In this document: in pieces, positions 13,686 to 57,687 of the stretch
Layout of the letters: every line of letters starts with the position of its first letter
Position numbering within the stretch: position 1 is the first letter of the stretch
Assembly (NCBI GenBank): GCA_017937405.1
Contig: JAGBDS010000046.1
Span: 1-62,554, forward strand
Source of the DNA: Oscillibacter sp.
GTDB taxonomy: Bacteria > Bacillota > Clostridia > Oscillospirales > Oscillospiraceae
Reading direction: 5' to 3'
Length of the DNA stretch: 62,554 nucleotides
Notes under the pieces: generated by a model
What the model saw: only the letters and a program-made list of their open reading frames with translations
The model's database searches: none
Told to the model about the DNA's origin: nothing
Program-made: the position numbers and the translations under genes

Positions 13686-14942
13686 TTGAATCAGGACATC
13701 ATTTGCGCGGGGCCACTGACGGAGGACGCCCTCTCCGACGCCGTGGCCCAATTTCTCCAGAGGATTCGCCCGGAGCGGGAAAGGCTGTTCGACTACTACC
13801 GGGGCGACCAGCCGGTGCCAAAGGGCGAGGCCGTCCGAGGGCGGCCCAACAATCTGCTCCGGGCCCCCTTCCCCCGCTACATCACCGAGGTCCACACCGG
13901 CTATTTTCTGGGGTTGTCCCCTACTCTGGATTTCGAGGACCAGCGGGCGGCCCAAGCTTTTTCCCAGCTGTCCGCTGGTCTGCGGCTGGAACACCTGCTC
14001 TTTGACATCGGCCGGGACATGAGCGTCTGCGGCGCCGGCTTTGTCCTGGTGTGGATGGAGCAGGCGGGGCTCCGGGCCTGCCGGTGCGACCCGCTCTCCT
14101 GCTTTTCTGTCCGGAGCGGTCAGGCGGGGGCGCCTTTGCTGGGCACCGTCCGGCTGTTCCGGGACGGTCAGGGGAATACCTCCGGCGTCCTTTACCGGGC
14201 GGATGCCCTGCGGCCCTTCACATGGGACGGCAGTCACGCCCGAATGGAAGCGCCGGAGGAGAACCTTCTCCGGGCCCTGCCCCTAGTTCCCTTCGCCAAC
14301 AACTGCCAGGGTATGGGCGACTTCGAGATGGTAACAGGGATGGTGGACGCCTACAACCTGCTGCTCTCCGGCGCCATGGACGATATGCAGTCCGTGGCCA
14401 ATGCCTTCCTGGCCCTGTACGGGATGCAGGGAACCACCCAGAGCGACATCGAGGAGGCCAACCGGACCCGGGTGCTGTCTCTGGCCGAGGGAGGCCGGGC
14501 GGAATTCGTGGTGAAGGACCTCGACCACGAGGCCTTGGGTCAGCTGGAAGTCAATTTGCGTCGAAACATTTTACAGCTGTCTATGACCCCGGACTTGTCC
14601 GACGAGCAGTTCGCCGGAAACGCCTCCGGTGTGGCTATGCGGTACAAGCTCTGGGGGATTGAGCAGGTGCGCGCCGCAAAGGAACGTAGCTTTACAGAGG
14701 GACTGACGGTGCTGCTGGCGGCGTTGTCCGGCGGACTGTCCCTTCTGGGAACGGCGGTGGATCTGACGGCAGGTAAGCCTACGTTCTACAAGAACCTGCC
14801 CCAGGACCACACGGAGCTGGCCTCCTCCCTCCTCTCCCTTTCCTCTATCCTGTCCCAGCGGACTATTCTGGAACACCTGCCCTGGGTGGCGGACGTGGAG
14901 GAGGAACTGCGGCGAAAGACGGCGGAACAGAAAAAAGGATAA
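13686..14942 (+). CDS. Phage portal protein, SPP1 gp6-like
   Basis: A protein of about 418 residues matching SPP1-type portals: it opens with a short helical region ending RERLFDYYRGDQPVPKG, followed by NNLLRAPFPRYITEVHTGYFLG, and the body shows AYNLLLSGAMDDMQSVANAFLALYG and FAGNASGVAMRYKLWGIEQ, both typical of the family. The portal is the dodecameric ring at one capsid vertex through which DNA enters. A GGGAGG at 13673-13678 sits one base from an ATG at 13680 and seven bases from a TTG at 13686; the TTG is better spaced. No terminase or capsid follows: the next genes are scaffold and tail fibre. The missing partners are at 46.7-57.7 kb. Confidence 0.9.
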   Translation: MNQDIICAGPLTEDALSDAVAQFLQRIRPERERLFDYYRGDQPVPKGEAVRGRPNNLLRAPFPRYITEVHTGYFLGLSPTLDFEDQRAAQAFSQLSAGLRLEHLLFDIGRDMSVCGAGFVLVWMEQAGLRACRCDPLSCFSVRSGQAGAPLLGTVRLFRDGQGNTSGVLYRADALRPFTWDGSHARMEAPEENLLRALPLVPFANNCQGMGDFEMVTGMVDAYNLLLSGAMDDMQSVANAFLALYGMQGTTQSDIEEANRTRVLSLAEGGRAEFVVKDLDHEALGQLEVNLRRNILQLSMTPDLSDEQFAGNASGVAMRYKLWGIEQVRAAKERSFTEGLTVLLAALSGGLSLLGTAVDLTAGKPTFYKNLPQDHTELASSLLSLSSILSQRTILEHLPWVADVEEELRRKTAEQKKG

Positions 14943-14978
14943 TATATCAAACTAAACTATCAATTAAGGAGCGGTTTT

Positions 14979-15269
14979 ATGACGGAAGACGAGAAAAAAG
15001 AATTGGAGGTTCTGCGCCGGGAGAAGCAGCAGCGCCTCCAGCGGGACCGGGCCAGAGCGGCTCTTGAGACCGCCGGTGTTTCGGTGTCCTTCGCCTCCCT
15101 GCTGGCGGGCAGTGATGACAGCGACACCGACCAGCGGACCCAGGATTTCTGCGCCGCCTATCAGGAGGCTCTGGCGGAGGATGTACGCAAGCGCCTGCCC
15201 CAGCAGCCTCCGGTGGTGACGCCTCCCGCCCCTAAGCGGGCCCGGCGCGGTATCCAGCGTATCAGATAA
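14979..15269 (+). CDS. Probable phage capsid scaffold or head-assembly protein
   Basis: A 96-residue, strongly charged, mostly helical protein with no membrane segment. The N-terminus (DEKKELEVLRREKQQRLQRD) is predicted coiled coil, the middle reads ALETAGVSVSFASLLAGSDD, and the C-terminus is basic and proline-rich (PAPKRARRGIQRIR). Position directly after the portal, small size, helix content and a basic tail all fit a scaffold of the DUF4355/gp20 kind, but it is shorter than usual. The middle phrase resembles the segment after the coiled coil in such scaffolds. Function is therefore inferred from form and position. The ribosome site is AAGGAG upstream of ATG. Confidence 0.65.
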   Translation: MTEDEKKELEVLRREKQQRLQRDRARAALETAGVSVSFASLLAGSDDSDTDQRTQDFCAAYQEALAEDVRKRLPQQPPVVTPPAPKRARRGIQRIR

Positions 15270-15281
15270 GGAGGAAAAGGA

Positions 15282-16361
15282 ATGGATATCCAAGGCTATT
15301 TTACAAAGAAGGGGCTGGCTCTCAGCGCAAAGCTGGCCACCGGGGCGCTCCTGACTATCACCAGAGTGGCGGCTGGTGCGGGGCAGACGGCAGACCACAT
15401 GGCGGCCACTTCCCTGCCCCAGCCGAAACAGACGCTGGCGGTGAACAGCCCTGCCAGAAGTTGGAATACTGCCACGATCCCCGTTACCTTGGCGGCAGCC
15501 CAGGCAGCGGAAGACTATACCTTGACGGAACTGGGCGTCTATGCGCAGGATCCTGATGAAGGGGAAATCCTTTACAAGCTCTACCGGCTGGACACGCCGG
15601 TGAACATCACGGCCGGCTCCCGGATGGTGCTGCGGTTCTATCTGGAGGAGACCGTCAGCCAGGATGTGAACGTGACGGTCAGCTGCTCTCCCGCGGGGCT
15701 GGTCACAGAGGAGGACTTCCTCCCTGTGCGGGAGACCCTGCAAACCTCCCTGTTGCCCCCGGAGTCCGTGACGCTGGCAGCCGGACAGCTGCCGGCCTAT
15801 GTCGCGGCGCTGCCCCGGTTCCTGGCAAAGGATCTCACCATTACGGTCAGTGGACCGCTGACGGAACCCCTGGTTATCCAGAACTTCCACGGAAACGGCA
15901 GCTTGCGGATCGTTGCGGATTCCATGGGCGCGTTTACTGTGCGCAATACGCGGGTGAGCATCCTCAACTGCGACATCAGGGTCGAGTTGTATCAGCTGGC
16001 CTTTGCCACCGACAGCACGGTGGAGACCGCTGGGACGGTGAATCTGCTGGCGGACAGATCCCCCCTTGTTTGGGTCATGGGATGCGCCTTCTCCGGCAAC
16101 GGCGCGGGACAGGCAATCATGTCCGCCAACCGCGCGGCTGTCAGTCTGGAGAATCTGACGGTCAAAAGCTACGAGACCGCCGTGTCCGTATGGAACGGAG
16201 GCACAGCCCTCTTGACGACGGTATCCGGTGAAAGCAATACCTACGGCATCTGCGCTTACAATGGCGGGATCGCTTACCTGACCAACACAGAGCTTTTAGT
16301 GGGCGGCACGTCAAATTACAACAGCAGCGGCTTCATCGTCAGATGCGGCTCGATGGTTTAA
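15282..16361 (+). CDS. Phage tail fibre protein with tail-collar N-terminus and beta-helix body
   Basis: A 359-residue protein. The first about 150 residues resemble the baseplate-attachment domain of tail fibres of contractile phages (FTKKGLALSAKLATGALLTI, TIPVTLAAAQAAEDYTLTELG, GSRMVLRFYLEE). From about 165 to the end it is rich in short beta strands (repeats like VSLENLTVKSYETAVSVWNG, GICAYNGGIAYLTNTEL), consistent with a right-handed beta-helix that contacts the receptor. In PBSX-like order a fibre (xkdV) follows xkdU; here it instead follows the scaffold gene, while an xkdU-like gene at 57103-57687 has no fibre after it. AAGGAGG precedes the ATG. Confidence 0.83.
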   Translation: MDIQGYFTKKGLALSAKLATGALLTITRVAAGAGQTADHMAATSLPQPKQTLAVNSPARSWNTATIPVTLAAAQAAEDYTLTELGVYAQDPDEGEILYKLYRLDTPVNITAGSRMVLRFYLEETVSQDVNVTVSCSPAGLVTEEDFLPVRETLQTSLLPPESVTLAAGQLPAYVAALPRFLAKDLTITVSGPLTEPLVIQNFHGNGSLRIVADSMGAFTVRNTRVSILNCDIRVELYQLAFATDSTVETAGTVNLLADRSPLVWVMGCAFSGNGAGQAIMSANRAAVSLENLTVKSYETAVSVWNGGTALLTTVSGESNTYGICAYNGGIAYLTNTELLVGGTSNYNSSGFIVRCGSMV

Positions 16362-16379: not shown

Positions 16380-16640
16380 ATGGACCTTTATTTATACCGC
16401 ATTGGTACGGCGGAGCCTCTGCTCCGCTTTGAAAAGGCGCTGTCCTATACGGACAGCCGGGTGGTGACGGAGGAGGGCGTTTACGAGCCTCTGGCCGAGA
16501 ACTGTGAGCTCTCCTCCCTGCCGGATTGCTCCGAGACTTTGCGGACGGACTGGGCGGCATCCTATCCCTCCCAGGAGACCCGCATCGAACAGATGGAGAG
16601 TTTGATGGCGGAGCTGCTGTTTGGAGGTGATGGCGAATGA
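16380..16640 (+). CDS. Small phage protein in xkdW position
   Basis: An 86-residue acidic protein beginning MDLYLYRIGTAEPLLRFEKAL and ending in a helical EQMESLMAELLFGGDGE. I do not recognise its family by sequence. Its place just after the tail fibre, its size and the C-terminal helix agree with xkdW-like genes of defective PBSX-like phages. No membrane segment or catalytic motif is visible. It overlaps the next small gene by four bases (ATGA), so the two are translationally coupled. It may help fibre folding or attachment; this is inference from position only. Confidence 0.6.
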   Translation: MDLYLYRIGTAEPLLRFEKALSYTDSRVVTEEGVYEPLAENCELSSLPDCSETLRTDWAASYPSQETRIEQMESLMAELLFGGDGE

Positions 16641-16774
16641 CGCTGGCAATGGCACTGCTGCTCCGGGTGGTGCGTCGGAGAATGGACAGGGGCGAAGCCC
16701 TGGACGATGTCTTGAGCGAATACCCGAAGCTGACGGAGGCGGAATGGGCGGAGATTAAAGGCACGCTCGGCTAA
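16637..16774 (+). CDS. Very small phage protein in xkdX position
   Basis: A 45-residue product (MTLAMALLLRVVRRRMDRGE, ending LTEAEWAEIKGTLG) whose ATG overlaps the stop of the upstream gene as ATGA. The C-terminal pattern, a Leu-Thr followed by acidic and aromatic residues and a terminal Gly, resembles xkdX-type peptides that end many tail operons. A strong terminator follows 14 bases after the stop, marking the end of the operon. Too short for secure assignment. Confidence 0.55.
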   Translation: MTLAMALLLRVVRRRMDRGEALDDVLSEYPKLTEAEWAEIKGTLG

Positions 16775-46304: not shown

Positions 46305-46330
46305 GGACAGGCCTCACGTGAGACCTGTCT
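46305..46330. promoter_or_regulatory. Palindromic site copy 2
   Basis: GGACA-GGC-CTCACGTGAG-ACC-TGTCT, one base from the full dyad. It lies between the Mor-like gene and the initiator gene, about 65 bases upstream of an extended -10 candidate TGCTACACT (46234-46242, minus). Confidence 0.8.
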
Positions 46331-46350
46331 GCTTTTTCTGCTTGTGGGGG

Positions 46351-46641
46351 TTATGAGCGGACACCGTTGATGATTTTCCGGATCTGCCGCTCGCTCAGGC
46401 GGAACTGGGCCGCCAGTGCCCGGTAGTTGCCGCCGTCGAACCGGGCCCGGATGTCCCGGTCACGGGCGTTTCGCTCCAGAGATTCCCGCTTGGGGATGTA
46501 CAGGCTCTGGCCGCCGCACAGCAGCGTCAGCTGGGTGAAGGCCTCCATGCCGATGGCCTCGGCAATATCCCGGTACTCCTCCGGGATGTCGCTCATGGGG
46601 ATGGTACGGGTGGTGGTCATGTAAGGGGTTGACATAGACAT
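46351..46641 (-). CDS. Mor transcription activator-like helix-turn-helix protein
   Basis: A 96-residue protein (ATG 46641, AAAGGA just upstream; the longer frame to 46689 reads through a palindrome). It contains PEEYRDIAEAIGMEAFTQLT, LCGGQSLYIPKRESLERNAR and a C-terminal helix-turn-helix YRALAAQFRLSERQIRKIIN. This is the layout of the Mor family, activators of middle genes in Mu-like phages. It is preceded by palindrome copy 3, which overlaps its presumed -35 box, and it may be the protein that binds the palindromes in this block; that link is inference. Confidence 0.8.
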   Translation of the reverse strand: MSMSTPYMTTTRTIPMSDIPEEYRDIAEAIGMEAFTQLTLLCGGQSLYIPKRESLERNARDRDIRARFDGGNYRALAAQFRLSERQIRKIINGVRS

Positions 46642-46676
46642 GCTTCCTTTCTGTGTGTAAATCGTGGAGTGAGTTT

Positions 46677-46702
46677 GAAAAAAACTCACGTGAGACTTGT
46701 CC
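46677..46702. promoter_or_regulatory. Palindromic site copy 3
   Basis: GAAAA-AAA-CTCACGTGAG-ACT-TGTCC; the right half is exact, the left half degenerate. Read on the minus strand it equals copy 5 in its first 24 bases. It lies five bases beyond the terminase stop and 36-61 bases upstream of the Mor-like start. Confidence 0.75.
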
Positions 46703-46707
46703 GAGAG

Positions 46708-48255: not shown

Positions 48256-48461
48256 GTAAAAACGCTCCTTTCGTAAGGCTGGAAACACCGTACCACCGGC
48301 GGGGGAGGAGGGCCAGTGAAGAAATTCCTGTGGGAAGGGTCTCTGTAAAAGGGGGAGAGGGGCGGTTTGTTGCACGGTTATGTTACACTTGTAAGTAAAT
48401 AAATGAGATTGTTTTGCGCGATGGTGTTACGTTGATTTACATAAAACAATCAGATTACCTG

Positions 48462-48490
48462 TTGCAATGTGGGAGAATCTATGTTATCTT
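48462..48490 (+). promoter_or_regulatory. Promoter of the small membrane protein gene
   Basis: TTGCAA, a 17-base spacer and TATCTT, about 85 bases upstream of the ATG at 48576. The intergenic region 48256-48575 is AT-rich and should also contain the divergent terminase promoter. Confidence 0.65.
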
Positions 48491-48575
48491 TGTACGACAA
48501 ATAACGATTTCTGACACTTTGGGTCAAAATGTCAAAAAAAGAAGCGCCGGGAAACGGCGCGGGAATGGGTCGGAT

Positions 48576-49046
48576 ATGATTTTTGGCGAGAGCGTATTGG
48601 GAAAGCTGGCGATGACGTTCGTCATGGCGATGGTGCCGGTGGTGGAGCTGCGGGGAGCCATTCCCCTGGGTGTGGCCGCCGGACTGCCGCCGGCCGTGGC
48701 CGCTGTGACGGCTATGATCGGGAACATGGTGCCTGTGCCGTTTATTCTGCTGCTGATTCGGAAGATTTTTCGGCTGCTGCGGAAAATATCTTGGCTGGGG
48801 CCGAAAATAGACGCTTTGGAGAAGCGGGCGCATTTAAAAGGGCGGAAGGTGAAGAAGTACCGGACGCTGGGGCTGGTGCTGCTGGTGGCTATTCCACTGC
48901 CGGGGACCGGGGCATGGACTGGGGCCCTGGTGGCGGATGTGTTGGACATCCGCATGAAAACCGCCCTGCCCGCCATAGCGGTGGGCGTTGTCATCGCGGG
49001 ATGCGTCATCACGGCATTGACCTGCGGGGTCGTGAGCCTGTTATGA
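48576..49046 (+). CDS. Small membrane protein of the COG2426 family (putative small multidrug export)
   Basis: A 156-residue protein with four membrane segments. The motif VVELRGAIPLGVAAGLPPAV and LGLVLLVAIPLPGTGAWTGA are the two conserved loops of the COG2426/small multidrug export family. Function of the family is not proven. ATG at 48576 is preferred because the longer frame's upstream part is unconserved. It sits between the divergent terminase and capsid genes with its own promoter and terminator, so it is probably a host gene that became enclosed, or that the phage block was inserted around. Confidence 0.83.
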   Translation: MIFGESVLGKLAMTFVMAMVPVVELRGAIPLGVAAGLPPAVAAVTAMIGNMVPVPFILLLIRKIFRLLRKISWLGPKIDALEKRAHLKGRKVKKYRTLGLVLLVAIPLPGTGAWTGALVADVLDIRMKTALPAIAVGVVIAGCVITALTCGVVSLL

Positions 49047-49123: not shown

Positions 49124-49167
49124 TTGCCCCGCTTTTGGGAATCACTTCCCAAGGCGGGGCGGTTTTT
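49124..49167 (+). terminator. Second terminator upstream of the capsid gene
   Basis: GCCCCGC-N2-TTGGGAA-N4-TTCCCAA-GGCGGGGC hairpin followed by GGTTTTTTT. It isolates the capsid operon from upstream transcription. Confidence 0.85.
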
Positions 49168-49229
49168 TTGCGGTATCGTGGGTCTATCGGGTCAAAAAAG
49201 CCGAAAATTCGAATACCGGAGGTATAATA

Positions 49230-50165
49230 ATGGCATTTGATTACGCAAAGGCATACCAGCAGTTCATCGATGAGGAGCTGGCGGCTTCCTCCGCCACCGC
49301 CTGGATGATCCCCGAGGCGGGCAAGGTCCGCTTCACCGGCGGCAGGGACATCGAAATCTCCACCCTGTCCACCACCGGCCTGGGCGACTACGACGCCACC
49401 AAGGCCGACGGCTCCGCCTATCCCCAGGGCACCGTCACCAACAGCTGGAAGAGCTACACCCTGTCTATGGACCGGGGCGTCAAGTTCTCCCTGGACCGCA
49501 CCGACCCCAACGACACAGGCTTCATCGTCACCGCCGAGAACGTCATCCGGGAGTTCGCCCGCAACGCGCTGGTGAAGGAACAGGACACCTACCGCATCCA
49601 CCGCCTGTACGCCCTGGCTGACGGTGACGCCGACCACAAGGCCACCCACATCGTGTCCGCCGCTCTGACCAAGGCCAACGCCATCGCCACCGTCAGCGGC
49701 CTGCTGCAGACCGTCCGGGACGACGCCGAGGAGATGGACGGCTACGTGGCCCTCATCAGCCACAAGCACAAGACCGCCTTCCTGGAGGCCGCCAACGGCA
49801 CCTACCACGACATCTCCTTCGGCAACGCCGTGTCCATCAACGGCATCACCTACGAGAACGTGATGATGCTGGACGACCTGCCCTGTATCTTCGTGCCCCA
49901 GAGCCGCATGAAGACCGCCATCACCGTCCAGAGCGGCGACAGCAACAGCGGCGGCATCGTCTCCGGCGAGGGCGCAAAGGACATCTCCTGCCTGATCACC
50001 CACTGCGAGACCCCCCTGGCGGTCAGCAAGCTGGACGCCATCAAGCAGTTCGGCCCCCAGGAGAACCAGCTCTTCGACGGCACTGCCATCCAGGCCCGCT
50101 ACCTGTATGACCTGTTCGTGCCCTCCAAGCGCCTGGCCTCCATCGGCGCCGTGGTGGCTCCCTGA
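49230..50165 (+). CDS. Phage major capsid protein (XkdG-like)
   Basis: A 311-residue protein with the HK97-like major capsid pattern of PBSX-type phages: FDYAKAYQQFIDEELAASSA, the central beta region KVRFTGGRDIEISTLSTTGL, WKSYTLSMDRGVKFSLDRTD, and NVIREFARNALVKEQDTYRI, the long spine helix. The C-terminal part has FGPQENQLFDGTAIQARYLY DLFV. GGAGG lies seven bases before the ATG. First gene of a plus-strand operon of at least twelve genes; its last base is shared with the next start (TGATG). No portal or scaffold precedes it here. Confidence 0.9.
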   Translation: MAFDYAKAYQQFIDEELAASSATAWMIPEAGKVRFTGGRDIEISTLSTTGLGDYDATKADGSAYPQGTVTNSWKSYTLSMDRGVKFSLDRTDPNDTGFIVTAENVIREFARNALVKEQDTYRIHRLYALADGDADHKATHIVSAALTKANAIATVSGLLQTVRDDAEEMDGYVALISHKHKTAFLEAANGTYHDISFGNAVSINGITYENVMMLDDLPCIFVPQSRMKTAITVQSGDSNSGGIVSGEGAKDISCLITHCETPLAVSKLDAIKQFGPQENQLFDGTAIQARYLYDLFVPSKRLASIGAVVAP

Positions 50166-50488
50166 TGATCGGCGCTGACAAGGTCGCCGCCATCCGGGCG
50201 AAAGCGGAAGCCCTTGCGGGGCATAGCCTTGGGGACAACGGGGATGCCTTGACGGAGATGGCGGCAAGGGCCGCTATGGCCTGGTGCAACCGGGAGGACA
50301 TTCCGGAGGACATGGAGGTGGTGATTGCCGCCCTGACCGTCTCCCTCGCCGAGGGGCGGGAGGCCGTGAAGAGCCTGACAAGGGGCGACACTTCCGTTAC
50401 CTACGACACCAACGCGGGCATGACGGGTCTTGCGTCCCTTGCCGCTCTGGCGCCATGGCGGCGTCTGGGGCAGTTGAAGGAGGGATGA
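50165..50488 (+). CDS. Phage head-tail connector protein (gp6/XkdH-position)
   Basis: A 107-residue, strongly helical protein (AAIRAKAEALAGHSLGDNGD, ALTEMAARAAMAWCNREDIP, MEVVIAALTVSLAEGREAVK). Small helical proteins at this position form the gp6-type ring below the portal. Assignment is by form and place. Its ATG overlaps the capsid stop. Confidence 0.7.
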   Translation: MIGADKVAAIRAKAEALAGHSLGDNGDALTEMAARAAMAWCNREDIPEDMEVVIAALTVSLAEGREAVKSLTRGDTSVTYDTNAGMTGLASLAALAPWRRLGQLKEG

Positions 50489-50491
50489 GCC

Positions 50492-50905
50492 ATGACGAAC
50501 AGCGCTATGGCGGCTATTCTGGCCCGGACGTACTTCCACACTGTCACGGCATGGCGGCCCACCTTGGAGGACGGCGAAGAACGGCTCTGTGAGGCCGCAC
50601 AATGCGCGCTGAGCCGTTCGGCGCATACCAGCGCCCCCACGCCCCCGGACGGCTCCTACGCGCTCCCGGAGGCCCTGTACAGGCTTTCCCTGTACACCCG
50701 CCCGGAGTTGGCTTTCCGCTTGGGCGACAGGGTGGAGATCACCGACGAGGGCGGAAACGTCTGGCACGGGCGGACTTCCGACAGCTTTCGGTATCCCTCT
50801 CACTGTGTAACGGTGGTGGAGATCAGCCATGTGGAGGCCGCTGCGGAAAGCGGTGGACAGGACTCACGTGAGTCAGAAGATACAGCGGGGGAGGGGAGCG
50901 CATGA
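50492..50905 (+). CDS. Phage head closure or minor head protein (XkdI-position)
   Basis: A 137-residue protein with a small beta domain (FHTVTAWRPTLEDGEERLCE, LALRFLGDRVEITDEGG-like middle near residues 75-100, WHGRTSDSFRYPSHCVTVVE) that fits head-closure proteins. The last about 25 residues (GGQDSRESEDTAGEGSA) are acidic and appear to come from palindrome copy 4, which lies in the gene's 3' end. The stop overlaps the next start by four bases. Family not recognised with certainty. Confidence 0.62.
   Translation: MTNSAMAAILARTYFHTVTAWRPTLEDGEERLCEAAQCALSRSAHTSAPTPPDGSYALPEALYRLSLYTRPELAFRLGDRVEITDEGGNVWHGRTSDSFRYPSHCVTVVEISHVEAAAESGGQDSRESEDTAGEGSA
50855..50880. promoter_or_regulatory. Palindromic site copy 4
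   Basis: GGACA-GGA-CTCACGTGAG-TCA-GAAGA: left arm and core exact, right arm lost. It lies within the end of one coding region and 22-47 bases before the next start (50902). Confidence 0.7.
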
Positions 50906-51312
50906 AAGCCATTCAGGACGCCGTGACGGCGTACCTGCAGAAAGTCACGGGTGTACGAACTGTGGCGGACAAAACCAGAGTTGCCGGGGAATACCCCCTG
51001 CTGGCGGTGGCCGTCCGGGAGGACGGCACCGTGCTGGTGGACGGCGGACGGCAGGCGGAGCACACCTACCGGGTGACGGTCACGGCGGCTTCTGACAGAA
51101 ACCGGGACGGAAACACCGCTTTGCTGGCGTCTCTGGCGCCGTATTTGCTCCGGGGGGTGCCGATGGGGGACAGGGTCTTGCACCCTTTGGAGGTCAAGAC
51201 TGAGGGGGAGGAGCTGACCTTTTCCCTGGAGCTGTGCGTGCCGGTGCCGGAGCCGGAGAAGCCCGGTATGGAACCGCCCGGAGTTATGGAGAATCTCCAT
51301 CTGGGCGTTTAA
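50902..51312 (+). CDS. Phage tail completion/neck protein (XkdJ-position)
   Basis: A 136-residue protein of alpha-beta type: VTAYLQKVTGVRTVADKTRV, YPLLAVAVREDGTVLVDGGR, EHTYRVTVTAASDRNRDGNT, and FSLELCVPVPEPEKPG. The pattern agrees with tail-terminator proteins that connect neck and tail tube in contractile phages. Followed 30 bases later by the sheath gene. Function is by position and general fold only. Confidence 0.7.
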   Translation: MKAIQDAVTAYLQKVTGVRTVADKTRVAGEYPLLAVAVREDGTVLVDGGRQAEHTYRVTVTAASDRNRDGNTALLASLAPYLLRGVPMGDRVLHPLEVKTEGEELTFSLELCVPVPEPEKPGMEPPGVMENLHLGV

Positions 51313-51342
51313 CGATAAAATCTTACGAATTTGGAGGTATTT

Positions 51343-52383
51343 ATGGGTCTTCCTGAAATTTTCATCAACTTCCAGACGGCGGCTGTGTCCGCCATCACCC
51401 GCTCCGCCCGGGGCGTGCTGGCGGTGGCGCTGACGGACGCCACCGAGGGCGGCGCGGACGAGGATGTTTACAAGAGCCTGGCGGAGGTGCCCCAGGAGCA
51501 GTTTACCGCCGAGAACTACCGCCTGCTGGAGCTGGCATTCCTGGCGGCCCCCAGCAAGGTCCATGTTCTGCGTGTGGGCGAGGACGCCGAGCTGACCTAT
51601 CAGGCCCTGGAGCGCCTGCGCTTCGACTGGCTGGCGGCTCCCGGTCTGGAGGACGCCACTGTCATTTCCTTTATCAAGATGCTCCGTGCGAGTGGCCGGG
51701 GCGTAAAGGCTGTGGTGGCGAATGCCACCGCCCCCGACTGCGAGGGCATCGTGAACCTGTGCGCCAGCGATCTGGTGCTGGAGGACGGCGCCATCGACGC
51801 GAAGGACTACACCGTCCGTGTGGCGGGCCTGCTGGCATCTCTGCCCCTGACCCGCTCCGCCACCTATGTGTCCCTGCCCGAGGTGGTGGGCTGCGCCGCC
51901 CTGGACGACCCCGACGGCGACGTGGACGCGGGCAAGCTGGTGATGGTCCCCGGACGGGACGGCTACCGCCTGGGCCGGGCCGTCAACTCCCTGACCACCC
52001 TGACCCCGGACAAGGCCGCGCCCTTTCAGAAGATTAAAATTGTCGAGGGCATCGACCTGATTCGCGGCGATATTGCCCGGGCTTTTGAGAGCGGCTATGT
52101 GGGCAAGGTGCTCAACGACTACGACAACAAGCTGCTGCTGGTCACCGCCATCAACGCCTATCTCAAGGGCCTGGAGGGCGATGTGCTGGACAAGACCGCG
52201 GACAACCGCTGCTTCGTGTCCCTGTCCGGCCAGAGAAGCTATCTGGAGAGCCGCGGCACCGACACTTCCGACATGAAGGACGCCGACATCCTGCGGGCCA
52301 ACACCGGCAGCCAGGTGTTTCTGGAGGCCAACCTGACTTTCTGCGACGCCATGGAGGATCTGTCGCTGGTCATTGCGATGTAA
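51343..52383 (+). CDS. Contractile tail sheath protein (XkdK-like)
   Basis: A 346-residue protein. ATG at 51343 follows GGAGG; the TTG at 51331 overlaps that site. Motifs of the sheath family: FQTAAVSAITRSARGVLAVA, YKSLAEVPQEQFTAENYRLL, RAVNSLTTLTPDKAAPFQKI KIVEGIDLI, and KDADILRANTGSQVFLEANL near the end. The sheath surrounds the tube and contracts to drive it into the target cell. This proves the tail type is contractile. Confidence 0.93.
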   Translation: MGLPEIFINFQTAAVSAITRSARGVLAVALTDATEGGADEDVYKSLAEVPQEQFTAENYRLLELAFLAAPSKVHVLRVGEDAELTYQALERLRFDWLAAPGLEDATVISFIKMLRASGRGVKAVVANATAPDCEGIVNLCASDLVLEDGAIDAKDYTVRVAGLLASLPLTRSATYVSLPEVVGCAALDDPDGDVDAGKLVMVPGRDGYRLGRAVNSLTTLTPDKAAPFQKIKIVEGIDLIRGDIARAFESGYVGKVLNDYDNKLLLVTAINAYLKGLEGDVLDKTADNRCFVSLSGQRSYLESRGTDTSDMKDADILRANTGSQVFLEANLTFCDAMEDLSLVIAM

Positions 52384-52400: not shown

Positions 52401-52847
52401 ATGGCAACCAATTTGCAGGCAAACAGAACCCTTTCGGGCTCCTTTTCCGAGGTCTGGGTGGACGGCGCCCGCATCGCGGAACTCAGTCAGCTGACCCTGA
52501 CTGTCAAGGTACAGCGGGAGAAGGTGCAGTTCGGCATGGACGTGGACAGCAAGATCACCGGCTACTCCGGCGAGGGCACCATGACCCTCAAGCAGGTCTA
52601 CACCCGCTTCTATGAGGTGCTGGAGCAGGCCAAGCGCGGCATCGACAAGCGCTGCACCATCACCACCGCCCTCAAGGACCCCGACGCCGCCGACGGCGCC
52701 GAGGAGCGTTACAGCGTGGACAACGTGGCTTTCACCGAGCTGCCCTTCATGAACTACAAGATGGGCGAGGTCAACCAGCAGAAGCTGCCCTTCACCTTCC
52801 GGCCCTCTGATCTTCAGTGCCTGGACAGCATCCAGGCCGCTGACTGA
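52401..52847 (+). CDS. Tail tube protein (XkdM-like)
   Basis: A 148-residue protein. Typical XkdM features: NRTLSGSFSEVWVDGARIAE, LTVKVQREKVQFGMDVDSKI, GEGTMTLKQVYTRFYEVLEQ and FTELPFMNYKMGEVNQQKLP. It builds the inner hollow tube that is expelled. AAGGAGG lies seven bases before the ATG. Overlaps the next start (TGATG). Confidence 0.92.
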   Translation: MATNLQANRTLSGSFSEVWVDGARIAELSQLTLTVKVQREKVQFGMDVDSKITGYSGEGTMTLKQVYTRFYEVLEQAKRGIDKRCTITTALKDPDAADGAEERYSVDNVAFTELPFMNYKMGEVNQQKLPFTFRPSDLQCLDSIQAAD

Positions 52848-54127
52848 TGGCCCTGGCGGACGTCCTGCGGGAGCGTGTCTCCCGCAGGGGCCGCACGGCG
52901 GAGGTCGATTGCGGTGAGCTTGGTACCGTGACCGTGGAGGCCCTGTCCCCCCGGGAGTGCGCCGCCCTGGGTATGGCTGACGGCGGACGGACGCTGCTCT
53001 ACGCCGCCTGCCGGGAATTGCAGATGGCCGGTGAGGCCCTGCGCCGGGAACGGCGGCTGTTCACCCCCGACGAGGTGACGCAGTATGTGTCCGACGGCGA
53101 GGCCCGGACAGCCGCCCGGACGGTGCTGGCGTTGAGCGGCGTGACGCTAAATGAGGCTATGGACGAGGCGGACGGTCCGGATAAATCCGAGGAGACGGAC
53201 ATCCCGGACAACGACGATACCTTCAGAGAAGATGGTGGGCGGTCGGACAAACAGAGAAATAATGTTTACCCCGTCTATCCTGAAGAGGCGGATTTCGGAA
53301 AAGCGACCGTGCCGACAATGGTACCGGAGATTATACCAACAGCGGAACAAGCAATTATACCGACAGCGGTATTATCCACGGCGCCGCAAATCCGACGTGA
53401 AACCGTGCAGATGGAATTGGATTCAGAGGGCGAAGAGTTCGCAGAGCTAGCTGTAGCAAGGGAAAAACGACTTGAGACCGTGCAAGGAACTGTGCAACAA
53501 ATGTCCGAAATCCGACCCGAAAACGTGCAGTTCCCGGAGGACCCTCCTGCGGATGGACAAGTCTCACGTGAGTTTTTTGGAAATGATAAAGTTAATCGGT
53601 CGACACCAAGCGTGGGGGCGGATTTGGATTTTGAACCACTAAATCTTGCGTTGTCCGAGAAAAACGGCGGGTTTATGTTACCTTTGGAACTGTCCGGGGA
53701 AACGCAGAATTTTTCGGCGGAGCAGTCGGCGGTGCACGAAATCAAGCCGGAAGTTCGGGAGGCTGTGCACGAAAACACATCGGAAATTCAAACTTCCGCT
53801 GAAATGGGCCTGCACGAAATCACATCGGATTTCCCGGAGACTCCGCACGAAACTACGTCGGAATTTGGCGGCAAACCGCTGGAGGCCCTGCACGAAACTG
53901 AGTCGGAAGTTCGGGAGACGGTGCACGAAATCAAGTCGGATTTTGCGGCAAACGGGCCGCAGGCTCTGCACGAAACCAAGTCGGATTTTCAGAACACGCC
54001 GCACGAAACCAAGTCGGAATTTGACGAAGACCGCCGGGAAGCCCTGCACGAAACCACATCGGAACTGGCGGAACAGGTGGCCCAGCGCCTTCTGGAGGGC
54101 CTGCGGCGGGCCGCTGCGGTGAGATAG
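52847..54127 (+). CDS. XkdN-like tail assembly chaperone with a long repeat-rich extension
   Basis: A 426-residue protein. Residues 1-about 105 look like an XkdN-type chaperone (LADVLRERVSRRGRTAEVDC, ALSPRECAALGMADGGRTLL, TPDEVTQYVSDGEARTAART). The family's usual length is about 145. Residues about 106-295 are low-complexity and acidic with several ETVQ or ENVQ phrases and lower GC. From V296 come nine units opening (V/L/P)HE-x-x-S-(E/D), spaced alternately 11 and 15 residues apart, then a helical end AEQVAQRLLEGLRR. In PBSX the tape measure xkdO follows xkdN; here there is none, and this extension occupies its place. Its role may be length control or chaperoning; this is a hypothesis. Confidence 0.72.
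   Translation: MALADVLRERVSRRGRTAEVDCGELGTVTVEALSPRECAALGMADGGRTLLYAACRELQMAGEALRRERRLFTPDEVTQYVSDGEARTAARTVLALSGVTLNEAMDEADGPDKSEETDIPDNDDTFREDGGRSDKQRNNVYPVYPEEADFGKATVPTMVPEIIPTAEQAIIPTAVLSTAPQIRRETVQMELDSEGEEFAELAVAREKRLETVQGTVQQMSEIRPENVQFPEDPPADGQVSREFFGNDKVNRSTPSVGADLDFEPLNLALSEKNGGFMLPLELSGETQNFSAEQSAVHEIKPEVREAVHENTSEIQTSAEMGLHEITSDFPETPHETTSEFGGKPLEALHETESEVRETVHEIKSDFAANGPQALHETKSDFQNTPHETKSEFDEDRREALHETTSELAEQVAQRLLEGLRRAAAVR
53555..53580. promoter_or_regulatory. Palindromic site copy 5
   Basis: GGACA-AGT-CTCACGTGAG-TTT-TTTGG inside the extension part of the 52847-54127 gene. Left arm and core exact; nearly identical to the reverse complement of copy 3. Confidence 0.7.
53732..54067 (+). 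repeat. Nine-unit coding repeat with alternating 33/45-base spacing
   Basis: Units begin at 53732, 53765, 53810, 53843, 53888, 53921, 53966, 53999 and 54044 with the DNA core NTGCACGAAAYCAMRTCGG. Spacings are 33, 45, 33, 45, 33, 45, 33, 45 bases, so the true period is 78 bases (26 residues). All spacings keep the reading frame. Confidence 0.92.
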
Positions 54128-54137: not shown

Positions 54138-54758
54138 ATGAACACCAGAACCGTTTTGCTTTGGCACAACAACGGTGAAGAGCGTATCTACTTTACAGTC
54201 AATCCCGCCCGTCTCACCGTCTCCCGGCCCAACGAGAACCGTGTACGGAGCCTTGCCATGGGCGGGACGGTGAATATCTGGGGCGGACGGGGACTGCGGG
54301 AAGTGAAAATGACCACCTTTCTGCCTGCCTCAAACTCGCCCTTTTTTGGAGGGCAGGAGCCGGAGAGCGTCCTCGCCATGCTGAAAAGCTGGCAGGACTC
54401 CGGAGACCCCGTCCGGCTCATCATCTCCGGCACCGACATCAACGACGCCTTCCTCATCGAGGATGTGTCCGAGACGCTGGCGGAGGGCGACCGGGACGTG
54501 GGGCTGACTTTGACACTGCGGGAGTATAAATTCAAGTCGGCTCTGGCGGCTCTGGCCGGGGGGAGCGGCGGCTCACCCGCCCAAAAGCGGACGGATGAGC
54601 GGGTCACGCCCCAGACCTACACCGTCAAAAAAGGAGACACCCTCTGGGACATCGCCTGCCGCTTTTACGGCGACGGGACAAAGTGGGGGACTATCGCCGC
54701 CAAAAACGGCGTGACAGACCCCCGGAAGCTACAAATCGGAAAGGTGCTGACGCTGTGA
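54138..54758 (+). CDS. LysM-domain tail protein (XkdP-like)
   Basis: A 206-residue protein. The first about 140 residues (TVLLWHNNGEERIYFTVNPA, RSLAMGGTVNIWGGRGLREV, VRLIISGTDINDAFLIEDVS) are XkdP-like and likely bind the tube or hub; the end has a LysM domain (YTVKKGDTLWDIACRFYGDG, KWGTIAAKNGVTDPRKLQIG) that binds peptidoglycan. In PBSX order it follows xkdO. Stop overlaps the next start (GTGA). Confidence 0.9.
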   Translation: MNTRTVLLWHNNGEERIYFTVNPARLTVSRPNENRVRSLAMGGTVNIWGGRGLREVKMTTFLPASNSPFFGGQEPESVLAMLKSWQDSGDPVRLIISGTDINDAFLIEDVSETLAEGDRDVGLTLTLREYKFKSALAALAGGSGGSPAQKRTDERVTPQTYTVKKGDTLWDIACRFYGDGTKWGTIAAKNGVTDPRKLQIGKVLTL

Positions 54759-55645
54759 AGCTGTTTATCGGACAACAGATGGTGCTGCCCGCTCTGGAGT
54801 CCGTCCGGCTGGGCAAGACCCGGAGCGAGGCGGCGGCGACCCTCGCTGCCACCGTGCTGACGGCTCCGGCGGACACCTACTTTCTTAAGCTGTCTATGGG
54901 GGTGGGTGACCCGGTGCGGCTGCTGGACGACGATGGGAAAGAAATTTTCCTTGGCAGTATCCACGAGATCGATCGCACCCCGGAAGCGGTGAACTTGACA
55001 GCCTACGACCGGGGTGTTTACCTGACAAGGAACGAGCTTTACGGCGTGTACGCCGGGATGGGAAAAACCATTGCGGCAAAAATCGCCGAGGAGCTGGGTA
55101 TCCCCCTGGGCACTGTGGAGGACGACGGCCTGCGGCGCACCATTGTCACCGGGGCGGGGCAGTCCGCATTTTCCATCCTGCGCAAAGCGATGGGGGAGGG
55201 GCGGGAAATCGCCATCCGGGACGGGGCGCTGACCGTCACCAAGGGGGGCGGCGAGGCCGTCCTCCTGCGCCCGGAGCGGGTGCTGGAGGTCACCAGCAGG
55301 GCGTCCATCCGGGAGATGGTGAACCGGGCCGTGGTGGTGGGGCGGAACGGAAACCACCTTGCCAGCGCCCGGAACGATCAAGACGCGGCCCTTTACGGGC
55401 AGTTCCAGCAGGTGCTGGGCAAGGACGGCGACCCGGCAAGTCAGGCGAAAGCGGCCCTCAAAGGGCGAACCATGTCCGCCAGGGTGACGCTGCTGGGTGA
55501 TCTGTCGCTGCGGTGCGGCGGCACGGTGGAGGTACACCGACCTCAGTGGGGGCTGGAGGGACTTTACACCGTCACCGCCCATGAGCACCGCTGGGAGAAG
55601 GGCCTTTTCACCACTTCACTGAGTTTGGAGGGTATCAATACATGA
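54755..55645 (+). CDS. Baseplate hub protein (XkdQ-like, gpD-related)
   Basis: A 296-residue protein starting with GTG 54755 that overlaps the XkdP stop; the longer frame reads into it. Features: FIGQQMVLPALESVRLGKTR, SMGVGDPVRLLDDDGKEIFL, VNLTAYDRGVYLTRNELYGV, LEVTSRASIREMVNRAVVVG. This is the pattern of XkdQ, the hub on which the central spike sits. Ends four bases into the next gene. Confidence 0.87.
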   Translation: MKLFIGQQMVLPALESVRLGKTRSEAAATLAATVLTAPADTYFLKLSMGVGDPVRLLDDDGKEIFLGSIHEIDRTPEAVNLTAYDRGVYLTRNELYGVYAGMGKTIAAKIAEELGIPLGTVEDDGLRRTIVTGAGQSAFSILRKAMGEGREIAIRDGALTVTKGGGEAVLLRPERVLEVTSRASIREMVNRAVVVGRNGNHLASARNDQDAALYGQFQQVLGKDGDPASQAKAALKGRTMSARVTLLGDLSLRCGGTVEVHRPQWGLEGLYTVTAHEHRWEKGLFTTSLSLEGINT

Positions 55646-55890
55646 ACGTTTACAGTGAGCTGCTGGAGCTGCTGCTCCGGTCGCCGGAGGTGGCGACAGA
55701 GGGGCTGTTCGGCACCCTGACCAGCATTTCACCCCTGACCGTCACCGTCCGGGGGACGAAGCTGACCGAGGGGTTGTTTTACCCCGCAGGGACTGTGTTC
55801 CGAAAAGAGGACATCGGCCGGGAGGTGGCCCTGCTGCTGTGCGAGGAGGGGTTCTGGATTTTGGGCTTTGTGGGAGGTGGCGGTGCATGA
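55642..55890 (+). CDS. Small baseplate protein (XkdR-position)
   Basis: An 82-residue protein with a compact beta pattern (LFGTLTSISPLTVTVRGTKL, LFYPAGTVFRKEDIGREVAL, LLLCEEGFWILGFVGGGGA), an OB-like shape seen in XkdR/spike-support proteins. Overlaps both neighbours by four bases. Assignment rests on position and size. Confidence 0.7.
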   Translation: MNVYSELLELLLRSPEVATEGLFGTLTSISPLTVTVRGTKLTEGLFYPAGTVFRKEDIGREVALLLCEEGFWILGFVGGGGA

Positions 55891-56327
55891 TTTTTCCTGA
55901 TTGGGGGGAAAACCCCGAAGCTGCTTCCGAAGAAGCGGTTCTGCCCCTGTTCCGGGAGTGGGCCGTGGACTGGGAGAACCAATGCTTTGCCCTGCGGAAT
56001 GGGGAGCCGTACCTTGTCTCAGGAGACGAGGCATTGAAAATCTGGGTGACGAAGGCCCTGCGGCCCGAGAGTGAGCGGTTTCGCTACACCGCCTGGTCGG
56101 CCGACTACGGCAACGAGCTGGCACCGCTGCTGGGCGGCTGCGTAGATCAGGGTATTCTGGAGAGCCAGGTGCGCCAGTATGTACGGGACGCCCTGCTGGT
56201 CTCGCCCTACATCCGGGAGGTGGACGGGTTCACCTTCACCAAGGAGGGCAGCGGGGTGGAGGCCCGGTTCACCGTCCACACCGTCTATGAGGAGTTTACC
56301 CAAACAACGGAGGTTCCAATCACATGA
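55887..56327 (+). CDS. Baseplate wedge protein (XkdS-like, gp25-related)
   Basis: A 146-residue protein (ATG 55887 overlapping the previous stop). LRNGEPYLVSGDEALKIWVT, YGNELAPLLGGCVDQGILES, YVRDALLVSPYIREVDGFTF and RFTVHTVYEEFTQTTEVPIT match XkdS/DUF2634, a wedge component of the baseplate. Overlaps the next start. Confidence 0.85.
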   Translation: MIFPDWGENPEAASEEAVLPLFREWAVDWENQCFALRNGEPYLVSGDEALKIWVTKALRPESERFRYTAWSADYGNELAPLLGGCVDQGILESQVRQYVRDALLVSPYIREVDGFTFTKEGSGVEARFTVHTVYEEFTQTTEVPIT

Positions 56328-57106
56328 CGAAAGAAGAAATGCTGCGGCTGCTTTCAGCCGCTTACACCGGCCCCGGCAGCGCCGGGGAGGGCACCTTCGC
56401 CGGAGATGTGCTCCGGGCGTGCGCCGACGGAATGGCCCAGCTCTGGAGCATGGACATCGACGGCCTGGAGCGCCGGGCCTTTGTGTCCTCCGCTGTGGGG
56501 GACTGGCTGACGGCGGTGTGCGCCGACAGGGGCTGCGTCCGCAAAGAGGGGGAGACAGATGGGGAGCTGCGGGCGCGTACGCTGGCGGCTCTGGCCGCCA
56601 CCCCCGCCTCCGGCAACGGTGACCACTACGCCGCCTGGTGCGGCCAGGTGGAGGGCATCCTGCGGGTGAAGGTGCTGCCTTTGGCACGGGGCAACGGCAC
56701 CGTGGACATCGTGGCGGTGGGACGGGACGGCAAGGCCCCCGCCCAGGCCGTCATCGCGGAAGCGCAGGCCATCGTGGATCGGGAGCGGCCCGTGGGGGCG
56801 GACGCCAAGGTGTTGGCGGCAACGGAGACGGCGGTAAACGTGACCGCTACCGTCACACTGATGGACGGCGGCGATCTGGAAGCCGTGAAGACCGCCTTTG
56901 ACCAGGCGTTGGCGGACTTTTTCCGGGACACCGCCCTGCGGACGAATGTGGTGAGCCACGCCAAGGTGCTGCGGCTGCTGCTGGACTGTGAGGGCGTGGC
57001 GGACGTCGCCGGCTTCACCATGAACGGCAGCGGCGACAGTCTGACGATGGCGGACGGTGCGGTGCCTGTGGCGGGCACGTTGACCCTGACGGAGGTGGGC
57101 GCGTGA
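56324..57106 (+). CDS. Baseplate J-like wedge protein (XkdT)
   Basis: A 260-residue protein of the baseplate J family: YTGPGSAGEGTFAGDVLRAC, AFVSSAVGDWLTAVCADRGC, LRVKVLPLARGNGTVDIVAV and VVSHAKVLRLLLDCEGVADV. It is shorter than many XkdT proteins (about 350) but has the start and end regions. It forms the wedge ring that triggers sheath contraction. Overlaps the next gene by four bases. Confidence 0.88.
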   Translation: MTKEEMLRLLSAAYTGPGSAGEGTFAGDVLRACADGMAQLWSMDIDGLERRAFVSSAVGDWLTAVCADRGCVRKEGETDGELRARTLAALAATPASGNGDHYAAWCGQVEGILRVKVLPLARGNGTVDIVAVGRDGKAPAQAVIAEAQAIVDRERPVGADAKVLAATETAVNVTATVTLMDGGDLEAVKTAFDQALADFFRDTALRTNVVSHAKVLRLLLDCEGVADVAGFTMNGSGDSLTMADGAVPVAGTLTLTEVGA

Positions 57107-57687
57107 GACTTCCCAAATTTGTGACGGAGCTGTCTCCCGTCCGGGAGACGCTGGAGGCTATCGGGGCAGGGGAGACCGCCATGGCGGACGCTGTGGCGGA
57201 GAAAAACGCGCAGGTATGCCTTGCCTCCGCGGACGAGGGCTTGTCCCTGTGGGAGCGGGACTACGGCCTGCCTGTCCGGGAGGGGGCTTCTCTGGAAGAC
57301 CGCCGTGCCGCCGTTCGTGCTGCCATGGCTGGGGGACGGACGCTGACCCCCGCCCTTTTGCGGGAGCTGTGCATCACCCTGGGCGGCGCGGACAGGGGGG
57401 AGGTCACGGAGGAGTTTCCCAACTGGCGGGTGACGGCGGAGGCCGTCAGCCGTGGACGTATTCCGGAGAATACCGCATTGCTGGAGCGGGCGGTGGAAAA
57501 GCTGAAGCCCGCCCATCTGGAGGTCCTTATCACGCCCCGGGGCGAGCTGCCTGCCGGGATGGAGCGGTACGCCGCCCTCACCGGGGGCGTGATGGTGGAG
57601 GTCACCGGAGACGATATCCAGCGAGGGGACCGTGCCCGGTATGCCGCCCTGACGGGGGGCGTGATGGTGGAGATCTGGGGTGCGTAA
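57103..57687 (+). CDS. Baseplate protein XkdU-like (gpI/DUF2313 type)
   Basis: A 194-residue protein with VTELSPVRETLEAIGAGETA, SLWERDYGLPVREGASLEDR and AAVRAAMAGGRTLTPALLRE, the DUF2313/XkdU pattern. It normally holds the tail fibre, and a fibre gene normally follows; here the operon ends instead. The C-terminus has a duplicated phrase RYAALTGGVMVE (from 57565 and 57637, 72 bases apart). Last gene of the operon, 14 bases before a terminator. Confidence 0.87.
   Translation: MRLPKFVTELSPVRETLEAIGAGETAMADAVAEKNAQVCLASADEGLSLWERDYGLPVREGASLEDRRAAVRAAMAGGRTLTPALLRELCITLGGADRGEVTEEFPNWRVTAEAVSRGRIPENTALLERAVEKLKPAHLEVLITPRGELPAGMERYAALTGGVMVEVTGDDIQRGDRARYAALTGGVMVEIWGA

Follow-up and report, generated by a model that had tools for sequence, protein, structure and literature searches.

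Two separated gene blocks in Oscillibacter that probably encode one domesticated contractile phage-like particle

Two blocks of phage-derived genes in the window, i.e., the whole 62,554-nt stretch of Oscillibacter sp. DNA analysed here (GCA_017937405.1, contig JAGBDS010000046.1, forward strand, 1 to 62,554), probably specify a single domesticated, headed, contractile particle, with dispersed operons that are kept by selection and presumably co-switched by Mor, and with a terminase that packages DNA. A domesticated particle with split loci had been proposed in a sequence-only reading, and it is now supported by co-occurrence, dN/dS, single copies and a shared promoter type. According to this model, a Mor-type activator would switch on the dispersed operons (terminase-Mor; capsid-tail-baseplate; portal-scaffold-fibre) together via a common site with its centre near -42. 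A headed particle would form from the products, and the terminase would package DNA, most simply that of the host, in a GTA-like manner. Gene content, the conserved split, co-occurrence, purifying selection and the shared promoter architecture are read from the sequences themselves; binding by Mor, particle assembly, the DNA content and its delivery are proposed parts of the explanation. That the separate loci have one type of switch in common and persist as a pair suggests that the particle may still be made, perhaps for moving DNA between cells or for killing rivals.

Table 1. Features of the window discussed in the text
Feature	Position	Strand	Evidence
Portal-operon promoter: right half-site GGTTCC-AAAG, 24 nt, TATGCT (-10)	13617..13658	+	matrix
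Portal (SPP1 gp6-like)	13680..14942	+	phrog_64 E 6e-77; PF05133; PDB chains 9m6k, 8v8b, 2jes
Scaffold, short, 96 aa	14979..15269	+	phrog_172 E 1e-11
Tail fibre	15282..16361	+	phrog_7037 E 7e-21, match to N-terminal part
Small gene, xkdW position	16380..16640	+	position; no convincing family match
45-aa gene, xkdX position	16637..16774	+	phrog_28526 E 2e-5
Integrase-like ORF	41222-42406		family match
Palindrome, core CTCACGTGAG	42493..42520	no strand	sequence search
DnaG/DnaB-type primase-helicase	42526..44382	-	family match
Single iteron-like repeat just behind rep3 stop	44883..44905	-	matrix
Rep3 replication initiator	44917..46188	-	PF01051
Palindrome, core CTCACGTGAG	46304..46331	no strand	sequence search
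Mor-family late transcription activator	46351..46689	-	PF08765 E 4e-19; phrog_532
Palindrome, core CTCACGTGAG	46676..46703	no strand	sequence search
Large terminase	46708..48375	-	phrog_38 E 2e-102
Terminase promoter-like site GGAATTTCTTCA, 24 nt, TACGGT	48287..48328	-	matrix score 11.0
PF06695 (Sm_multidrug_ex; putative small multi-drug export) gene, cellular-type	48414..49046	+	Pfam
Capsid-operon promoter: dyad GGAATCACTTCC, 24 nt, TATCGT	49138..49179	+	matrix
Major capsid	49230..50165	+	phrog_422 E 2e-60
Head-tail connector	50165..50488	+	PHROGs match
Head-tail connector	50492..50905	+	PHROGs match
CTCACGTGAG site, end of connector gene	50854..50872	no strand	sequence search
Neck-position protein, conserved, no clear family	50902..51312	+	position, conservation
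Contractile sheath (XkdK-like)	51331..52383	+	phrog_1480 E 1e-104; structure matches 6gkw, 8v3t
Tail tube	52401..52847	+	PHROGs match
Fusion gene: XkdN-position N-domain, variable repetitive linker, conserved C-terminal segment	52847..54127	+	position
Inverted iteron-like repeats (53387/53388, 53463, 53508) in fusion gene	53387..53530	-	only 53387 above matrix threshold
CTCACGTGAG site in fusion gene, between inverted and direct repeats	53554..53572	no strand	sequence search
Nine direct iteron-like repeats TGCACGAAAnCAnnTCGGAnnTT in fusion gene	53733..54067	+	matrix
XkdP-like (LysM)	54138..54758	+	PHROGs match
XkdQ-like	54683..55645	+	PHROGs match
XkdR-position baseplate protein	55642..55890	+	position; conserved
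XkdS-like (baseplate wedge)	55839..56327	+	PHROGs match
XkdT-like (baseplate wedge)	56324..57106	+	PHROGs match
XkdU-like	57103..57687	+	PHROGs match

PHROGs and Pfam confirmed the portal, scaffold and fibre families in the portal block (13.7-16.8 kb), which, together with two small genes in xkdW and xkdX position, is the content first ascribed to this operon. In block B (46.7-57.7 kb), PHROGs confirmed the terminase, capsid, connector, sheath, tube and baseplate families, with matches for five tail or baseplate genes besides the connectors, sheath and tube. The earlier gene list for this block thus stands by family for these genes, while its XkdN is placed by position only and the terminase proves to be divergent from capsid, on the minus as against the plus strand. 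The neck-position, fusion and XkdR-position genes have no strong family match in PHROGs. Because, in addition, profile comparison of the fusion gene with XkdN of the G006 prophage is weak (probability 8.9), its XkdN assignment rests on position; it occupies the slot expected for XkdN plus tape measure. The Xkd names of tail and baseplate genes are presumptive assignments that follow gene order. The family covering the XkdP-like LysM protein, phrog_380, is named endolysin. Conserved terminase blocks, to which we presumptively give active-site roles, align across nine sequences, one of them a prophage. The listed starts of the terminase, Mor and PF06695 genes are probably too early since similarity to homologues sets in near residues 41, 11 and 36, respectively; the true terminase start probably lies ~42 residues inward. 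The frames are open as had been claimed, and the ribosome sites attributed to all of them were seen by eye at many starts.

The absence of portal and scaffold from block B was borne out, and in the window the PF06695 gene separates terminase and capsid. No second copy that would supply the parts was detected either: in the window's own genome, a MAG that is 89% complete, portal, sheath, terminase and capsid give one match apiece, as far as these portal families reach. Polysaccharide genes sit between the two blocks and also adjoin the fibre operon. On common contigs (G000, which is the window's genome, G093, G066, G021 and G109) portal and capsid starts are ~20-36 kb apart. The terminase-capsid interval contains no portal in G000, G007, G094, G093, G022, G075 or G020, nor in strain MSJ-31, G109, G110 or L146, L148 and L152, the three of seven viral-collection fragments showing both genes. 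Likewise, portal adjoins capsid in no split-particle locus read in the genus. In related phages, portal is beside capsid. Of 60 phage contigs whose terminase is related and is followed by 3 kb or more, 16 had a detectable related portal, always (16/16) within 3 kb downstream; the other 44 gave no portal hit. The split order in the genus is unlike the terminase-portal order of phages by more than chance. A second split particle of another family was considered in G058, where portal and sheath are on different large contigs, and was rejected as an unrelated prophage plus a headless tail region.

Capsid orthologs occur in 9 of 86 genomes of the genus and portal orthologs in 8, all within the capsid-positive nine. 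As expected of blocks that are conserved and co-occur, there is no portal-only genome; portal accompanies capsid in 8/9 cases (that of G020 being a fragment) versus 0/77 without capsid (Fisher p 1.7e-10, kinship ignored). The purifying selection expected of a functional particle was found too, dN/dS of structural genes of both blocks being 0.05-0.38. Of 108 structural matches examined across seven relatives, 103 are unique, lack stops and have a coverage of at least 80%. The set is largely intact in O. valericigenes An890, for example. The G020 and MSJ-31 lineages are decaying: 4 of 14 matches are intact in the former, while in the latter xkdT is frameshifted and the fibre region contains an IS-like ORF. 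Stops are also present in the G075 xkdS and G093 xkdU matches. An ordinary tape measure was not recognised in the portal block or block B. The phrog_991 tape measure, the one family searched, gave no match in eight split-particle genomes (G020 left out) and a match in the control, G006; MSJ-31 has one match, on another contig. No lysis gene was seen by eye among ORFs of the portal-operon region of eight genomes or among the family matches of block B. The decay in these lineages, the stops in two further genes, the missing tape measure and lysis genes and a patchy distribution could mean that rearrangement broke up a prophage whose pieces have lost their function and are decaying. This is quite improbable, however, given dN/dS well below 1, the intact matches in the seven relatives, the pairing of the blocks and the conservation of their promoters.

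The capsid and portal promoters have one architecture, a dyad followed by exactly 24 nt and a -10 box. When derived only from capsid promoters, a matrix still detects sites 63-72 nt upstream of the portal start in 7 of 8 cases (each with p 0.001-0.035), every one exactly 24 nt from a -10-like box; the G020 portal fails this test. The matrix also picks the separate fibre of G093 (18.9) and the terminase of G075 (18.5), and 7 of 9 further capsid upstream regions score at least 13.7. Of the 22 sites scoring at least 14, 8 are located elsewhere. The left half-site of the portal promoter is poor in the window, G066 and G021, and terminase sites lack a proper -10 in G022, MSJ-31 and L148. MSJ-31 carries a different site, GAACGGCGACA, 24 nt and a -10, at both capsid and portal promoters, with no Mor match within the 20.9 kb read. 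G109 combines Mor and a canonical capsid site with a portal site that is MSJ-31-like. Mor/C late promoters combine an activator dyad near -43 with a -10 box. The same layout is seen here, the dyad centre lying, by spacing, at about -42, and a Mor-type activator is probably the binder of this shared site.

A particle of this kind could also be a PBSX- or tailocin-like killer of relatives, its head filled or not and its fibre setting the target. The tail and baseplate are indeed xkd-like, and among solved structures the sheath comes closest to the CD1363 sheath and an XkdK-like protein. Comparison across relatives shows a fibre with ~150 conserved N-terminal amino acids and a variable C-terminus, and polysaccharide genes are its neighbours. 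Moreover, capsid genes tend to be retained in tailocin prophages of Gram-positive bacteria, according to excerpts of a review (PMC10538166). Purifying selection on portal, capsid, connectors and terminase nevertheless goes beyond the needs of a headless killer, and we regard this alternative as possible but doubtful.

Behind the terminase, the minus strand encodes Mor, then Rep3 (dN/dS 0.07-0.11) and then the primase-helicase (0.06-0.12). The conservation of the latter two and of iteron-like repeats near the terminase would suit a mobile phage or phage-plasmid that they replicate and that spreads between species. So would the integrase-like ORF, the patchy distribution (3 changes on the rpoB tree) and the grouping of G093 with G075 in the block B tree but with G007 in the rpoB tree. 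Yet the two trees agree on G021-G066, the integrase-like ORF is reduced to a remnant in G007, polysaccharide genes lie between the blocks, and of the nine capsid-positive genomes in the genus only five gave a Rep3, as did two capsid-negative ones. Mobility of this sort is, in our view, improbable. The block B tree has 8 rows (G020 left out) and the portal tree 7; the window's genome is missing from the rpoB tree because G000 and G094 have no rpoB match. The portals are star-like, 66-81% between all seven, and far more divergent between close species than the other genes. Rep3 was rejected as a core part of the particle, given its distribution, including its presence in MSJ-31.

The variable part of the fusion gene is made up of iteron-like DNA repeats. 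An initiator gene and clustered direct repeats are features of Rep3-type iteron origins; here the cluster is ~7.5 kb from rep3, with one copy adjoining it. Judged from these repeats, the fusion gene may hide a replication origin in the tape-measure slot. Iteron-like repeats are found in the tape-position gene of most lineages, usually with Rep3 nearby, and may add a local origin; the candidate origin is absent in some lineages. We tentatively raise the possibility, which we consider rather unlikely, that Gram-positive gut bacteria have a dispersed GTA with a contractile tail and with its own origin in a particle gene, iterons read by Rep3 and Bartonella-like run-off. The linker of the fusion protein would then be what the inverted and direct iteron arrays, recognised by the nearby-encoded Rep3, translate into. 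Induction would fire the origin and amplify the flanking chromosome, including the polysaccharide locus between the blocks, and the amplified DNA would be fed to the terminase. The origin would be Bartonella-like, but inside a virion gene. The presence of repeat arrays in a tail gene suggests that DNA function can dictate the variable region of a protein.

No published account of this split-particle system was found in the PMC literature, outside which lie preprints and most subscription papers. The contiguous prophages of the genus, G006 and G032, have related terminase (56%), portal (26-27%), capsid (27%), sheath (43%) and Mor (41%), but their terminase, portal, scaffold and capsid genes are contiguous and G006 has an ordinary 832-aa tape measure. 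With its split operons, the system may register as only two broken prophages when contiguous ones are searched for, and the shared promoter offers an alternative route to such systems. In PBSX of Bacillus subtilis, a single contiguous region includes tape measure and lysis genes and encodes a headed contractile particle that kills related strains. The Oscillibacter system, known from its genes, has the xkd-type tail and baseplate genes and would share the headed contractile particle; it differs in being dispersed, in its Mor-type activator and in having no tape measure found, so that the PBSX-type contiguous xkd region is not seen.

Faecalibacterium, also a gut bacterium, presumably belongs to the same order as Oscillibacter. 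The available portions of the FpGTA paper (PMC12946183) describe particle genes likewise in two separated operons: I, present in each of the 12 Faecalibacterium genomes studied, has terminase, portal, scaffold and capsid, and II has baseplate, fibre and lysis genes. The FpGTA particles, which were seen, are probably podovirus-like with 8.4-8.9 kb DNA. By description, the Oscillibacter system, known from genes only, has instead a sheath and tube, portal and scaffold together with fibre, terminase apart and no recognised lysis gene, so that the two-operon layout is not the same. GTA-like packaging has also been reported in Oscillospiraceae, in Onthomonas (3 of 25 events); of the 4 MAGs searched in that study, only one, from Faecalibacterium, yielded a strong candidate operon. 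With a dispersed contractile candidate, a related genus now offers something that such packaging data can test.

GTAs are characterised, according to PMC9662315, by tailed-phage-derived genes forming a virion-like particle and a fully endogenised genome, often at multiple loci. They are mostly inherited vertically and co-diversify with the host, and they deliver to other cells mostly random host DNA, never their whole own genome. The particle genes described here are tailed-phage-derived by homology, the particle being known from genes alone, and are endogenised over multiple loci. RcGTA genes are likewise spread over several loci (PMC9662315, in part), but RcGTA is of another phage lineage, whereas the Oscillibacter system has a contractile tail and a Mor-type gene. 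In the Bartonella GTA, as far as the extracts of PMC6899734 go, particle genes are likewise linked to a phage-derived run-off origin, in a segment that has host-interaction genes as well; the candidate origin in Oscillibacter lies instead inside a particle gene.

Family searches bore out the gene calls that the sequence-only reading had made in the portal operon (block A) and in the terminase, capsid and tail region (block B). They recognised neither a tape measure nor a dedicated lysis gene in either block; the phrog_380 'endolysin' match spans the whole XkdP-like LysM protein.

Features of the window
Feature	Position	Strand	Remark
Sugar transferase gene			immediately 5' of block A
Block A: portal, short scaffold, fibre, two small genes	13.68-16.77 kb
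Abi_2-like (PF07751) abortive-infection gene	17049-17984		adjoins portal operon
Polysaccharide genes: glycosyltransferases, DegT aminotransferases, GDP-mannose dehydratase-like, nucleotidyl transferase, Wzy_C-like	between blocks
Long open frames	35473-38331	both
S-layer-homology proteins	38437-41037; 57754-61635		flank block B region
ORF with integrase-like N-part	41222-42406		phrog_1, E 3e-11; remnant in G007
Block B: Mor-family activator, Rep3 initiator, small variable gene, primase-helicase	behind terminase, in this order
Block B: terminase		-	divergent from capsid, PF06695 gene in between
Block B: capsid to XkdU-like gene	49.23-57.69 kb	+
Sites with core CTCACGTGAG, arms like GGACAAG	42493-42520; 46304-46331; 46676-46703; 50854-50872; 53554-53572		all in block B region

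No portal-like gene lies between terminase and capsid in any genus locus that shows both genes. On shared contigs the distance from portal start to capsid start is about 36 kb in the window's own genome (G000), 32 kb in G093, 23 kb in G066, 21 kb in G021 and 20 kb in G109; in G066, G021 and G093 this interval contains a gene homologous to the sugar transferase of the window. As a control we took the best 80 of 442 terminase relatives from a viral collection (43-61% identity), 60 of which had at least 3 kb behind the terminase. A portal was detectable in 16 of these 60 contigs, in all 16 at most 3 kb downstream of the terminase, and the other 44 gave no portal match at all. The terminase-Mor pair sits on a separate contig in G021 and G066, fibre and portal are on different contigs in G094, and G093 has a second fibre 3' of its XkdU-like gene. 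At locus L097 of G093, scaffold and fibre are separated by roughly 2 kb, in which an XRE-like ORF was recognised by eye. The distant genome G111 (capsid 57%) keeps terminase, portal and scaffold together; behind these genes come what by eye resembles a terminator and, where the contig stops, part of a frame on the opposite strand. Because its capsid lies on another contig, the split may be older than the genus, within the limits that contig ends set to such a reading.

Capsid orthologs occur in 9 of 86 genus genomes (at least 73% identity; next best match 29%) and portal orthologs in 8 of 86 (at least 66%; next best 28%); a capsid alignment search of GTDB r220 returned 12 loci, including Oscillibacter valericigenes An890 and Oscillibacter sp. 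MSJ-31. The sequence-only reading, which took the blocks to complete each other, had named co-occurrence and purifying selection as its checks, and both came out in its favour. All eight portal genomes are among the nine with a capsid (Fisher 1.7e-10, an overstatement since the genomes are related), the match in G020 being 80 residues long. G022, the sole capsid genome lacking a portal, is a MAG of 87% completeness; that of the window is 89% complete. Terminase is present in all nine, in pieces in G020. Four further genomes yielded portal orthologs in MSJ-31 (69%), G109 (63%) and G111 (43%) and none in G110.

Nei-Gojobori dN/dS of the block B structural genes (G000 against G007 and G094) is 0.05-0.38, the exceptions being the fused tape-position gene and orf 44407 (both 0.5-0.7). 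For the portal it ranges from 0.10 (G020 fragment) to 0.32 against seven genomes; fibre values cover the N-terminal 150 codons only, and some portal and fibre ratios are less sure, dS exceeding 1. Among 108 structural matches in seven relatives, 103 are single, stop-free and at least 80% covered; of the other five, three fall short in length only (two fibres, one connector), and stops occur in the last two (G093 xkdU, G075 xkdS). In G020, 4 of 14 structural matches are intact, and the same contig gives Rep3 and helicase matches of almost full length. The xkdT gene of MSJ-31 is frameshifted, and the fibre region of this strain contains an ORF that we take to be IS3-like. The arrangement in G104 looks like a loss footprint, since Rep3, Mor and the PF06695 gene are direct neighbours, the 4.1 kb read contains no terminase and the genome has no capsid ortholog.

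The blocks also share a promoter type. Eight of nine capsid upstreams carry a dyad like GGAA-N4-TTCC, exactly 24 nt and a -10-like box, and that of G093 a weaker variant. A matrix trained on nine capsid sites that were chosen by pattern, and on no portal site, placed the best portal-upstream sites at -63 to -72 in seven of eight cases (p 0.0013-0.0345 per 306-nt window), G020 failing; the test is not fully blind because the motif was first spotted by eye in both sets. With a second matrix, from eight good capsid sites, a scan of 1.16 million positions gave 22 at or above the cut-off of 14: the eight training sites, three portals (G094, G007, G093), eight elsewhere and three others. The 22 include a separate fibre of G093 (18.9), the G075 terminase (18.5) and one capsid dyad read backwards. 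The remaining portals score 2.3-13.8, the background in unrelated loci being 0.15 sites of at least 8.4 per kb. Of nine further capsid upstreams, seven score at least 13.7, those of G111 and MSJ-31 not; by eye, the G111 capsid has CGAAGTGTTTCG, 24 nt and TAGAAT. Terminase sites with a -10 box are present in the window (11.0) and L146 (15.5) and absent upstream of the terminases of G022, MSJ-31 and L148. Among second or separate fibres the G094 site is weak (6.4), and none precedes the G111 fibre or the G093 second fibre.

We infer that Mor binds the dyad. In MSJ-31, GAACGGCGACA stands in both the capsid and the portal promoter, and the 24-nt spacing is kept (the capsid site at an unusual -185). 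No Mor match occurs within the 20.9 kb read; the place of Mor is taken by an ORF on the opposite strand that has a P-loop-like GPNGSGKST motif and is presumably zeta-toxin-like (L145, 6237-7993). G109 counts against a strict link, since it combines Mor and a canonical capsid site with a portal site, AGAACTGCGACG, like that of MSJ-31.

The histories of the blocks differ. Block B is 93% identical between G021 and G066 and between G000 and G007, whereas the portals of these pairs are 74% and 72% identical. The portals are star-like, all seven lying 66-81% from each other, unlike the rest of the particle. Block B and rpoB trees agree on G021-G066, but G093 groups with G075 in the former and with G007 in the latter, which leaves vertical descent unproven. 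Independent diversification or exchange of the portal-scaffold-fibre cassette seems likely, perhaps together with the neighbouring polysaccharide genes.

Between tube and XkdP, the window and all 12 aligned relatives have a single frame of 192-483 aa (52847-54127 in the window), where the contiguous prophage G006 has XkdN and an 832-aa tape measure. It comprises a conserved N-domain of about 100 aa, a variable linker and a C-terminal segment that is conserved in all but G111. The repeats in the linker are elements of the DNA, TGCACGAAAnCAnnTCGGAnnTT, and the window has nine direct copies preceded by inverted ones; another copy of this type lies directly 3' of rep3. In the encoded HExxS units (seven genomes and one viral-collection contig), 58 of the 59 Ser codons are TCG and 58 of the 59 codons for the second residue are GAA, compared with TCG for 4% of 144 Ser and GAA for 20% of 158 Glu codons elsewhere in the window's blocks (nine genes). 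We read the repeats as a putative iteron-type origin inside the tape-position gene; a different protein may bind them instead. Repeats near Rep3 also occur in G086 and G104, both devoid of capsid; no repeats were found in the linkers of G021, G066, G109, L148 and G111, and Rep3 was not found in G021 and G066 nor near the G109 locus. G093 and G022, both incomplete MAGs, do not fit a simple Rep3-repeat model, since they have repeats and no detected Rep3. Besides this candidate origin, the window holds eight CTCACGTGAG matches (0.73 expected), and two of the five tabulated sites are inside coding sequence. Such sites, whose core we take to resemble parS, recur in several repeat-carrying relatives and upstream of the G075 portal; the stretches of G021 and G066 and the two prophages have none.

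The original observation and its main inference hold: the two blocks probably encode a dispersed, functional, domesticated contractile particle with a head. Because it departs from the layout of the Faecalibacterium gene transfer agent (FpGTA) and from that of PBSX, and packaging and delivery are putative, we do not file it with the gene transfer agents or with PBSX. The particle would nonetheless work most like one of these two.
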